Source: Deltaproteobacteria bacterium (GTDB lineage Bacteria > Desulfobacterota > Syntrophia > Syntrophales > UBA6807). From it: DNA of 33,877 bases. Every line of letters starts with the position of its first letter. Position 1 is the first letter of the stretch. Under the pieces are notes generated by a model, which searched no databases, had not been told where the DNA came from, and worked only from the letters and a program-made list of their open reading frames with translations. The translations under genes and the position numbers were made by a program. The stretch lies in the NCBI GenBank assembly GCA_011056835.1, contig DSDU01000081.1, positions 1 through 33,877 on the forward strand, in the 5' to 3' direction. This document shows positions 22,658 to 26,955 of this stretch, in pieces.

Positions 22658-23818
22658 CTACAGTAGTTCATATGCTAATTGAGCCGTCCGGGCAGCGGCC
22701 CCCGATGTGCCCAACCTGTCTTTTATGGATCGCAATTCCTGCCGGATACGTTTCAGCCGTACGTTATCGTTGAGAATGCCATATATTTCATGTGCCATTC
22801 CTTCCGGAGTAACTTCGTGCTGAATCAGTTCCGGAACAATTCTGCGCCCTGCAATAATGTTGACCAGCGCAATGTTGTCGACACCGATCAACAATTTCCC
22901 CAAATAATACGATATCTGAGAAACTTTATAGACCACGATCATCGGGGTCCCGATGAGAGCGGTCTCAAGGGTCGCCGTCCCCGATGCAACCACGGCAATA
23001 TCGGATACAGCAATCACATCATACACATTGTTACGAATTATTCTGACTTCAACGGGATACCGGCCGACTATGTCAGCAACAAAAGTGTAATCCAGGGTAT
23101 CCGCAAGAGGAAGAATGAACTGAACAGAAGAGAGCCTGTTTTTGAGAATGCACGCAGCTTCAAGCATATCCGGTAACAGACTGACGATTTCATTGCGTCG
23201 GCTTCCCGGCAGAATACCGACAGTCGTGGTCCCATTGGTCAATCCGAACTCTTTCAGGGCATCGTCACGCGAATATCGTTGTCTGACCACGTCCAACAGC
23301 GGATGTCCGACAAATGTCACATCAAGATCAACATTTTCATATACTGCCGGTTCAAACGGCAGAATAACAGCCATCCGGTCGACATATCGTGCTATCTGGT
23401 AAATCCGTTTTTTTCTCCATGCCCAGATCTGGGGACTGATGTAATAAAAAACCTTGATGCCCGATTGGTGTGCCGCTTTAGCCAGAGGAAGATTAAAGTC
23501 AGGATAATCGATGAGGATTGCCAGATCGGGACGATCTTCCACCAAAGACCGTTTTAATTTCCGACGCACATTGAGAATGAATCCAATCTTAGAGAGAACT
23601 TCGGTCAGACCGACAACCGCCATCTCTGAAGATTCCGCAATAATATCAACTCCCGCCGCACGGAGTTTTTCCCCACCTACTCCGTAAAAACGGAGCATCG
23701 GATCCAGGCGATTCATGGCTTTCACCACATGAGCACCATGAAGATCTCCAGATGCTTCCCCCGCGACGATCATGACCTTCTTATGCGTCGAATGCGGGCT
23801 ATGCTGATCAGAATGCAT
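22658..23818 (-). CDS. lpxB: Lipid-A-disaccharide synthase
   Basis: This is a 386-residue GT19 enzyme joining two acylated glucosamines into the lipid A backbone. VMIVAGEASGDLHGAHV (about 15-31) is the signature N-terminus. SSEMAVVGLTEVL, ILIDYPDFNLPLAK, YYISPQIWAWRKKR and LPGSRRNEI are all LpxB motifs, and SGTATLETALIGTPMIVVYK is the donor-site segment. The start at 23818 lies inside the last codons of the gnnB relic, an 11-base overlap, so its translation was presumably coupled to gnnB. A second in-frame ATG at codon 16 would cut into the conserved start. Confidence 0.94.
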   Translation of the reverse strand: MHSDQHSPHSTHKKVMIVAGEASGDLHGAHVVKAMNRLDPMLRFYGVGGEKLRAAGVDIIAESSEMAVVGLTEVLSKIGFILNVRRKLKRSLVEDRPDLAILIDYPDFNLPLAKAAHQSGIKVFYYISPQIWAWRKKRIYQIARYVDRMAVILPFEPAVYENVDLDVTFVGHPLLDVVRQRYSRDDALKEFGLTNGTTTVGILPGSRRNEIVSLLPDMLEAACILKNRLSSVQFILPLADTLDYTFVADIVGRYPVEVRIIRNNVYDVIAVSDIAVVASGTATLETALIGTPMIVVYKVSQISYYLGKLLIGVDNIALVNIIAGRRIVPELIQHEVTPEGMAHEIYGILNDNVRLKRIRQELRSIKDRLGTSGAAARTAQLAYELL

Positions 23819-24154
23819 GATTGATCACTTGATGGATTTGGTGGATTTCCTCTCTCATCAGCTCGGAGAATGTGGAAAGGAGAAGTACTTCCCTGGCCGG
23901 CTTATCACTTATTGAAAGATCGGCAGATGAAGGATGCCGGTGGGCAAATGCTTTTTGTTTATGAAGCGGTACGGGGTGATAGAGGGCTGAGATGATGTTC
24001 TTATCGTCCAATCTCTTCACAATATCGCCTCTCCTGTCGGATCGAAGGGTAAACTGATGATGCACATGCTTCGTCTCATGCTCTTCGGTGAATAGAACGA
24101 CCCGGCCTTTTTGAACATTCGATACGACCTGTTGAGATCCACCATTAGAGTCAT
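23808..24154 (-). pseudogene. gnnB: gnnB relic: DegT/DnrJ-type aminotransferase with an internal deletion
   Basis: A DegT-family PLP aminotransferase of about 370 residues is expected here. The ATG at 24154 overlaps the gnnA stop (ATGA) and encodes MTLMVDLNRSY, a typical DegT-family opening, but that frame stops at 24017. A second frame, open from a TTG at 24161, encodes the family's C-terminal part: HETKHVHHQFTLRSDRRGDI, then ALYHPVPLHKQKAF (the Y-H/Y-P-x-PLH motif), then REVLLLSTFSELMREEI. Roughly 250 residues with the PLP lysine are missing and the two ends are in different frames. I read this as a deletion of the middle of the gene. GnnB transfers an amino group to the 3-keto sugar made by GnnA. 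The remnant runs into lpxB and may survive by keeping translation coupled. Confidence 0.8.
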
Positions 24155-25107
24155 GTGGCAAGCCCCTGTCCCATGTTCATTTTTTCTACAATTTGAAGCG
24201 CCAGTTCAAGAGACTTTCGTCCCTCTTCTCCCGAAACAATCGGAGGGGTCCTCGTTGAAACAGCGTGGATGAAAGACCGTATTTCCCTTTCGAGAGGATC
24301 GTAATCCTCTACATCAACATTGTTCTGAAATATGCCGACCGATCCTTTATCGTTCTTCCTGCTCAATGACATCAGTTCCCGTTTCCCGCAGTCGACGGAA
24401 TGGTACCCACTAAGGCCGAAAAATCGAATTTTCTGCATAACCTTGCCGGTTACCCTGCTGGCCGTTACGTTGGCGACACATCCGTTCCGGAATGTAATCC
24501 GTGCGTTGCTGATATCCACATTATCAGACAGAACCGATACACCAACCGCCTCAACATTTTTAAGGGGAGATTTGACAAAGCTAAGAATGATGTCAAGATC
24601 ATGAATCATCAGATCGAGTATGACATCCACGTCTGTTCCCCTGGTGAAGAACGGATGAAGTCGGTGAGCTTCAATAAAGAGCGGTTCATCCATTACATTT
24701 TTCAGGGCAACGATTGCGGGGTTGAAACGTTCGATAAAACCGATCTGGAAAATCGCCCCGGTGGTTTTGGCAAGCGAAATGAGCCCGTCCGCTTCTTCGA
24801 TGTTTACCGCTATGGGTTTCTCAAGCAGTACATCGACTCCGGCTGCAAGGAAATCTTTGGTCACGACATAATGATATTTGGTCGGCACGGCAATACTCAC
24901 CGCATCAACCATTCCGACCAGATCGCGGTGATCATCGAAGGATTCACAACCATATGTTTCCGCTGCACGATCGGCCCGCTCTCTTGTGCTGTCGGCAACT
25001 CCGACGATCGCGCATTCGGCTAATTGCTCATACTTTTGGAGGTGATACGTTCCAAGGTGACCGATTCCGATCACCCCTACTCGTATCTTTTCATTACCGT
25101 TATGCAT
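24151..25107 (-). CDS. gnnA: Gfo/Idh/MocA-family NAD-dependent oxidoreductase, GnnA-like (UDP-GlcNAc 3-dehydrogenase)
   Basis: This is a 318-residue oxidoreductase. The Rossmann motif is VGVIGIGHLGTYH (Gly14, Gly16, Gly19). LLEKPIAVN (Glu96-Lys97-Pro98) holds the catalytic lysine of the family. ILDLMIHDLDI (Asp165, His169, Asp170) is the conserved substrate-site helix. GnnA of Acidithiobacillus and Leptospira oxidises the 3-OH of UDP-GlcNAc, and its gene lies between lpxA and lpxB with gnnB. The same position here supports the assignment. The protein looks intact although its partner gene is broken. Other roles of this broad family cannot be excluded. It begins 17 bases after the lpxA stop. 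Confidence 0.78.
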   Translation of the reverse strand: MHNGNEKIRVGVIGIGHLGTYHLQKYEQLAECAIVGVADSTRERADRAAETYGCESFDDHRDLVGMVDAVSIAVPTKYHYVVTKDFLAAGVDVLLEKPIAVNIEEADGLISLAKTTGAIFQIGFIERFNPAIVALKNVMDEPLFIEAHRLHPFFTRGTDVDVILDLMIHDLDIILSFVKSPLKNVEAVGVSVLSDNVDISNARITFRNGCVANVTASRVTGKVMQKIRFFGLSGYHSVDCGKRELMSLSRKNDKGSVGIFQNNVDVEDYDPLEREIRSFIHAVSTRTPPIVSGEEGRKSLELALQIVEKMNMGQGLAT

Positions 25108-25124: not shown

Positions 25125-25898
25125 TTATCGGCAGATGCCTCGCTTCGCGTTTTCTATAAATTCCACAAAATGTCTCACTTCAGGCAGATCCTCTACATCA
25201 TCCCTGACCTTCCGGACAGCCGTTGAAAGGAGGAGTGACGATCTGAAGACTATCTTGTAGGCTTTTTTCAATGCACGCAGCACATCTTCTGTAAATCCCC
25301 GCCGTTTCAGACCAACAAGATTCAGTCCGTACGGCTTCGCCCGATTGCCTGAAACCGTTATATAAGGGGGTACATCCTGAACCACGGCGGATGCGCCGCC
25401 GATAAATGCATGGCATCCTATTCGTGAAAATTGGTGGATACCGGTTAAGCCGCCGATAATGGCAAAGTCCTCGACATGGATGTGCCCTGCCAGATTGGCG
25501 GCATTGGCCATAACGATGTTATTCCCCAGTTTACAGTTGTGTGCCACATGACAGTATGCCATGATTAAATTGTTGTTTCCGATGAAGGTCATGGCAATGT
25601 CTGCAGCGGTGGAACTATGGATGGTAACAAATTCACGTATCGTGTTGTTATTCCCAATAATAACCTTACACTGCTCTCCCCCGAATTTTAAATCCTGAGG
25701 AACCGCACCGATTGAAGTGAACTGGAATATACGGCAATTATCACCTATTTCGGTTCGGCCCTCGATCACGACATGAGGACCGATAACAGTATTCTTTCCG
25801 ATTTTCACCTCGGGACCGATGACACTGTACGCCCCCACTTCAGCATCTTCCTGAAGTTCCGCCCCCGGTGAGACGACTGCTGTCGAATGAATGTTCAT
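25125..25898 (-). CDS. lpxA: UDP-N-acetylglucosamine O-acyltransferase
   Basis: This is a 257-residue left-handed beta-helix acyltransferase starting [20 protein letters not shown]; the hexapeptide repeats run to about residue 185. The catalytic histidine is His120 in [12 protein letters not shown], equivalent to E. coli His125. The chain-length and end-of-helix region reads [13 protein letters not shown], then [10 protein letters not shown] and a helical C-terminus. It acylates UDP-GlcNAc with an acyl-ACP, the first step of lipid A synthesis. If GnnA and GnnB acted, it would acylate the 3-amino sugar instead. AAGGA precedes the ATG at 25898; an in-frame start further upstream would run into lpxD. 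It lies 25 bases after lpxD, with no fabZ between. Confidence 0.94.
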
Positions 25899-25923
25899 TG
25901 TATTGATCCTTCTTTCCGCACCT

Positions 25924-26955
25924 TCACGCCTTATTCTGCTTTTCAAGCGCTTCTATTTTTTCTTCAATATATTTCAGTGTTCGTCTCATATCCGGCAATT
26001 GACCAATACATGCCTGCGTTCTGAGCCATTTCTGGTGAGGCATATGAGGAGCTCCACTGACGATCTGACCGGATGAAACGTCCTCGTGAACACCGGATCG
26101 AGCCGCAATCATTACACCGTCACCAATCTCGATATGCCCCACAATTCCGGCCTGACCGCCGATAACGACGCTGTTTCCCAGTTTTGTGCTTCCCGAAATC
26201 CCCACCTGGGCAACAACGATTGAATTTTCACCAATAACGACATTATGGGCGATCTGAACGAGGTTATCGATTTTCGTGCCCCGTTTAATCCAGGTTTTGC
26301 CCAGTGTCCCTCGATCTATGGTTGTATTAGCTCCAATTTCCACGTCATCGTCAATTTGCACGATTCCCACCTGGGGGATTTTTCGATTTTCCCTTCCTGG
26401 ATCGGTAAATCCGAACCCGTCACTCCCGACAACAACTCCGGCATGAATGATAACCCGCTTTCCGATTCTGCATTTCCGATAAACGGTTACGTTTGGATAA
26501 AGAATTGAATCTTCACCGATTTCCACATTGTTGCCGATACAAACACCCGGATAAAGAACCACTCCCTTTCCTATTCGCACGCCGCGCCCGACGTAGACAC
26601 CAGGGTAACTGGTTGTATTTTCACCGAATTCAGTTCCTTCACCGACAAAAACTTGATCGCTGATACCGGGGGTCTCTTGATCTTCAGGATAAAACAGCCC
26701 CAACAGACGGGCAAAGGCCTTATAGGGATCTTGAACGACGACAAGGTTCTTCGTCGATTCTTTGATGGTCGGCGATACCAGAACAGCCGATGCCCCGGTA
26801 TATTCAAGTTTATGCCTATACCTGGGATTTGCGATGAAGGTGATATCACCGTTCCCGGCTTCGTCGATGCCTCGCACATTATTGATCATAACCGTATCGT
26901 CACCGATTACCGCACCTTCGAGCAATCCGGCAATTTTCCTTAACTGAATTTCCAT
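25924..26955 (-). CDS. lpxD: UDP-3-O-acylglucosamine N-acyltransferase
   Basis: This 343-residue enzyme is a trimeric beta-helix protein adding the N-linked acyl chain in lipid A synthesis. The N-terminal uridine-binding domain includes [19 protein letters not shown] (about 30-48). Hexapeptide repeats cover about 100-300, and the catalytic histidine is His237 in [32 protein letters not shown] (about 178-197) is the LpxD-specific loop, and a helical tail (about 310-343) ends in lysine- and glutamate-rich sequence. It starts 91 bases after the ompH stop. The order ompH-lpxD-lpxA is shared by many proteobacteria, although fabZ normally sits between lpxD and lpxA. Confidence 0.94.

Follow-up and report, generated by a model that had tools for sequence, protein, structure and literature searches.

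The GnnA/GnnB pathway has been described in Acidithiobacillus ferrooxidans, Campylobacter jejuni and Mesorhizobium, and the order of the GnnA and GnnB reactions is known (PMC5644692, PMC8036547). The window analysed here is a stretch of 33,877 nucleotides, contig C20 of genome G000, a 3.41-Mb draft in 261 contigs with 99% completeness and 4.7% contamination; its host is a member of the Syntrophales (Desulfobacterota), not of Acidithiobacillus. As in the described pathway, gnnA occupies the slot between lpxA and lpxB, the encoded protein shares the GnnA family and its catalytic residues, and sister lineages of the window carry intact GnnB homologues in the same slot. By contrast, the window and many other Syntrophales lineages have lost gnnB whereas gnnA persists.

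Other Desulfobacterota with an lpxA-lpxI-gnnA-lpxB arrangement (L119, L126, L118 and others) likewise have gnnA without gnnB near lpxB, but their operons contain lpxI and fabZ, both of which are lacking in the Syntrophales operon. In the WbpB/WbpD/WbpE (WlbA/WlbC) pathway to UDP-GlcNAc3NAcA, a Gfo/Idh protein and a DegT aminotransferase also add a 3-amino group. G000 encodes such a set on contig C170; it differs in being a separate locus, for which a glucuronate-type sugar of surface polysaccharide, not of lipid A, is expected.

The gnnB remnant of the window

The lipid A operon lies on the minus strand in the order bamA, ompH, lpxD, lpxA, gnnA, gnnB remnant, lpxB, msbA and lpxK, where bamA, ompH, msbA and lpxK were named from the translations of their open reading frames, with no family search. 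Its central features are:

25924 to 26955, minus strand: lpxD (TIGR01853, E=1.9e-110)
25125 to 25898, minus strand: lpxA (TIGR01852, E=4.4e-106), start set at MNIHS by alignment
24151 to 25107, minus strand: gnnA, predicted UDP-GlcNAc 3-dehydrogenase (Gfo/Idh/MocA), intact, 318 aa
24110 to 24154, minus strand: gnnB 5' remnant, start codon and about 14 codons, from alignment to the intact L014 gnnB and translation; its ATG (24154) overlaps the gnnA stop
24017 to 24154, minus strand: 45-aa open reading frame from the original gnnB start, from translation
24110 to 24125, minus strand: gnnB deletion junction and frame shift, both flanks aligned to intact gnnB (347 versus 1095 nt)
23808 to 24122, minus strand: gnnB 3' remnant, about 100 C-terminal DegT residues in another frame (PF01041; 53.5% identity to the L014 C-terminus); its TGA overlaps the lpxB start
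22658 to 23818, minus strand: lpxB (TIGR00215, E=1.1e-97)

The product of gnnA is predicted to be a UDP-GlcNAc 3-dehydrogenase. It matches PF01408 (3.8e-29) and, under that model's cut-off, the NCBIfam UDP-GlcNAc 3-dehydrogenase (2.8e-65); the nearest solved chain is 7bvj (E=3.4e-60), and the EKP (E96, K97, P98) and H-D (H169, D170, D172) motifs of the Gfo/Idh/MocA fold are present.

The translation from the gnnB ATG at 24154, which overlaps the gnnA TGA in the ordinary ATGA manner, begins with MTLMVDLNRSYRMFKKAG... and its frame ends at the stop at 24017. Aligned to the gnnB of G001 (L014), a sister genome of the same genus in which the gene is intact (364 aa), the window sequence matches over roughly 15 codons at the start and then from around codon 262 onward, with about 247 codons missing in between. 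Only 347 nt are left of about 1095 nt, and the net loss of about 748 nt is not a multiple of three and is thus out of frame. The frame running from 24161 to 23808 matches the DegT/DnrJ family (PF01041) at profile positions 262 to 358 of 360 only (E=1.7e-9). A chance match to gnnB was ruled out by this E-value and by the position and ends of the remnant, which match those of its relatives. The PLP-lysine motif SFFPSKNL, present in 46 of the 46 intact Syntrophales GnnB proteins checked, is absent. The remnant descends from gnnB, as both of its ends align to the sister's intact gene in the same slot, and it is no longer a full-length fold-type I PLP aminotransferase with a catalytic lysine. These observations agree with the sequence-only reading, which had described a complete gnnA beside a gnnB reduced to its two ends, with overlapping start codons and frames, a C-terminal part in a different frame and the catalytic lysine deleted; the junction that it had put near 24120 is placed by the aligned flanks at about 24110 to 24125.

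The sequence of the C-terminal remnant has also diverged. Its dN/dS against the sister G001 is 0.347, compared with 0.096 for the intact G001-G002 pair and with about 0.06 for lpxA and gnnA in the same comparison as the remnant. Identity to G001 is 53.5% for the remnant C-terminus, 82% for GnnA and 88% for LpxA. At 34 positions, 90% or more of the other intact copies share the same residue; the remnant has lost it at seven of these positions and the sister at none, and the worst of 46 intact GnnB copies breaks five. Both the raised dN/dS and the broken conserved sites are those of a pseudogene under relaxed selection. Inactivated by an internal deletion, gnnB is now a decaying pseudogene in this genome and, since its C-terminal remnant has decayed relative to intact relatives, the deletion is real and old and not an assembly collapse. 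That it might instead be an assembly or binning artefact of a metagenome-assembled genome is largely refuted and in our view hardly tenable. The draft is in 261 contigs, and two other apparent gnnB deletions (L173 and L176) turned out to be due to runs of N, and both loci were counted as intact. However, there are no Ns at the junction of the window, the missing part of gnnB is on no contig of the assembly, similar remnants occur in other assemblies, and the decay of the remnant exceeds that of all relatives, which is impossible for an artefact.

The pattern shared among remnants suggests that the two ends of gnnB have probably been preserved by their overlaps with the gnnA stop and the lpxB start. 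The stop of the 45-aa open reading frame overlaps a GTG (24020; GTGA) that opens a 70-aa C-terminal frame; this overlap could let ribosomes run on toward lpxB, or may be due to chance. It should also be noted that fabZ and lpxI, found in the outgroup Desulfobacterota operons, are missing from the window operon, including the interval 25898 to 25924. As no LpxI_C match was found in the window genome, the UDP-diacylglucosamine pyrophosphatase step must, judging from its gene content, rely on an enzyme other than LpxI.

Recurrent loss of gnnB in the Syntrophales

An orthologue of gnnA was found in 110 of 149 Syntrophales genomes. An intact gnnB is adjacent in 58 of these, 49 have no intact gnnB orthologue (including G076, where the locus is cut by a contig end) and in the remaining three the locus is broken by an N gap or a contig end. 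Remnants with both ends of gnnB occur at L033, L175 and L077/L155, and L017 retains a C-terminal trace consisting of the last gnnB codons only. Deletion of gnnB beside an intact gnnA is a recurrent pattern across the order, beyond a single case. On a FastTree phylogeny of LpxA, GnnA and LpxB, at least 13 changes and 15 maximal all-lost clades were counted (about 13 to 15 lineages), a count that is approximate as the deep forks are weakly supported. The loss in the window is well placed, as gnnB is intact both at its sister L075 and at the next-nearest locus L076, on starred branches. Because GnnB distances follow operon distances (Mantel r=0.79, 0 of 2000 permutations), the inheritance of GnnB appears to be largely vertical, and repeated loss is a simpler reading than repeated gain.

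Seventeen genomes lacking gnnA were tested. Thirteen have lpxA, and in nine of these lpxB comes directly after it with neither gnn gene between. At L222 (G004, same family), the gene after lpxA is msbA-like, and gnnA, gnnB and lpxB are all missing between the two; the sole LpxB-like match of G004 is 36% identical and lies on another contig.

Outside the order, nearly all of the Desulfobacterota loci examined have gnnA but no gnnB, mostly as lpxA-lpxI-gnnA-lpxB. These loci are the best matches from a larger set, so that their frequencies are biased; L129 is one outgroup locus with both genes. No trace of gnnB was seen in the lpxA-lpxI-gnnA-lpxB outgroup loci examined, where its absence may be ancestral rather than due to loss.

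GnnA in lineages devoid of GnnB

About 60 GnnA residues, including EKP (96 to 98) and H169/D170/D172, are invariant in Syntrophales with and without gnnB, and the window GnnA departs from the conserved state at 2 of 114 sites. In close pairs, the median omega of GnnA is 0.087 where gnnB is present (16 pairs) and 0.145 where it is missing (15 pairs). GnnA is still under purifying selection after the loss of gnnB, and the slightly higher omega without gnnB is consistent with mild relaxation. Since GnnA stays catalytically complete and constrained in this genome and in dozens of relatives that lack gnnB, it is most likely kept for a role that does not require GnnB and is linked to the lpxA-lpxB operon.

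The same genes could also be undergoing a two-step loss of the pathway, in which gnnB goes first and gnnA is a passing, functionless leftover that goes later. Genomes with neither gene do exist, genus g5 includes both G099, with gnnA and a gnnB remnant, and G051 and G006, which have no gnnA, and the omega of GnnA is slightly higher in gnnB-less lineages. However, a useless gene is expected to show an omega near 1 and broken frames, whereas whole families (f10, f14 and f19) keep an intact and constrained gnnA long after the loss of gnnB, and gnnA is retained without gnnB at almost every outgroup Desulfobacterota locus of the best-matching sample. We therefore consider a two-step loss to be very unlikely.

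The separate role of GnnA may extend further. We propose, tentatively and as a possibility that falls short of the probable, that GnnA would be across the Desulfobacterota an enzyme of the lipid A operon with a GnnB-independent function, UDP-3-keto-GlcNAc, or a product made by a partner, being used in envelope biosynthesis, and that the GnnA/GnnB diamino pathway would be a variant that was repeatedly switched off. A constrained GnnA without GnnB poses a testable question, namely what the job of this dehydrogenase is beside lpxA and lpxB without the transaminase.

A second GnnA-like dehydrogenase (325 aa, 36% identity over 176 aa) is encoded on contig C146 of G000 (L043), beside a UppP-like open reading frame.

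Candidate aminotransferases and lipid A linkage

The sequence-only reading had proposed as a check a search of the genome for another DegT aminotransferase near lipid A genes. No intact GnnB orthologue was found elsewhere in the 99%-complete assembly, in which a pathway with both genes intact is accordingly lacking; the best DegT, encoded on contig C170, is 47% identical to GnnB. This WbpE-like protein is the candidate if another aminotransferase were to replace GnnB, with GnnA still feeding UDP-GlcNAc3N synthesis and amide-linked lipid A persisting. It is complete, with the PLP motif FFPSKNL, and has orthologues (75-76%) in only three other genomes of the order, G099, G102 and G077; G099 also has gnnA together with a remnant of gnnB, and neither these three nor the window genome yielded an intact gnnB orthologue. 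A replacement would directly explain the continued selection on GnnA. In addition, gnnB is unlinked from the lpx genes in M. loti (PMC5644692), and identity alone is no bar to a replacement, as the candidate GnnB proteins of Granulibacter share only 37-39% identity with that of Acidithiobacillus (PMC8036547). On the other hand, G102 (98% complete) carries the C170-type DegT but no gnnA, and the C170 gene adjoins its own fused Gfo/Idh-acetyltransferase open reading frame, as in WbpB-WbpD-WbpE sugar modules. Moreover, six nearly complete genomes without gnnB (G010, G012, G018, G026, G034 and G035) lack any DegT that hits GnnB at E<=1e-60, and no single replacement thus explains the order-wide pattern. 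Altogether, we regard the replacement of GnnB in the window genome as unlikely. A universal replacement was also considered and rejected, as the sole nearly universal DegT is KdnA-like (8-amino-Kdo) and occurs alongside gnnB too.

The acceptor pocket of LpxA was compared at E. coli positions Q73, D74, K76, H122, H125, Q161, N198 and R204, which we take, on the basis of E. coli LpxA structures, to represent it. These eight positions are identical in Syntrophales with gnnB, with gnnA only and with neither gene. The LpxA columns that track gnnB status most strongly are at neither catalytic nor acceptor residues and appear to reflect phylogeny; they were not retained as determinants. In lineages with neither gene, LpxA must, from their gene content, work without the 3-amino sugar and acylate UDP-GlcNAc, and the same pocket therefore probably permits UDP-GlcNAc in the window LpxA. 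To our knowledge, no lipid A structure is available for this lineage, and a search of the literature on Syntrophus lipid A found nothing relevant.

Taken together, these results are best explained by a loss of gnnB, ester-linked lipid A and a separate role of GnnA, a combination that we hold with moderate confidence. The internal deletion inactivated gnnB and left a decaying pseudogene; without GnnB, UDP-3-keto-GlcNAc would not be converted to UDP-GlcNAc3N, a permissive LpxA would then acylate the 3-hydroxyl of UDP-GlcNAc, lipid A would revert to ester-linked primary chains, and GnnA would be retained for a GnnB-independent role. Within this explanation, we infer the loss of UDP-GlcNAc3N, the ester linkage and the independent GnnA function from sequence comparisons. 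A lack of 3-amino lipid A is made likelier by the conservation of LpxA and by the relatives without both genes. The earlier claim that the 3-amino pathway is broken thus holds for the deletion and for the lack of an intact GnnB orthologue, and the absence of 3-amino lipid A itself is what we infer. The three readings then offered, reversion to ester-linked lipid A, supply of GnnB from elsewhere and another activity of GnnA, are compatible, and the evidence favours the first together with the third. Lineages are seldom observed in the course of a switch between amide- and ester-linked lipid A, and here remnants from several lineages can be compared with intact sisters.

Two other loci of the genome deserve mention. 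On contig C170 (L213), the fused Gfo/Idh-acetyltransferase open reading frame beside the DegT gene encodes 541 aa; beyond this genome, counterparts of this DegT (75-76%) occur in genus g5 alone, and as that genus belongs to another family, the distribution suggests horizontal transfer. Contig C67 (L002, L214) encodes a KdnA-like transaminase (5k8b, E=2e-103); next to it lie a KdnB-like alcohol dehydrogenase of the iron type and an HldD-like open reading frame, both named from their translations. A DegT similar to that of C67 is found in nearly all genomes of the order searched, and the C67 set suggests the presence of 8-amino-Kdo in the core.
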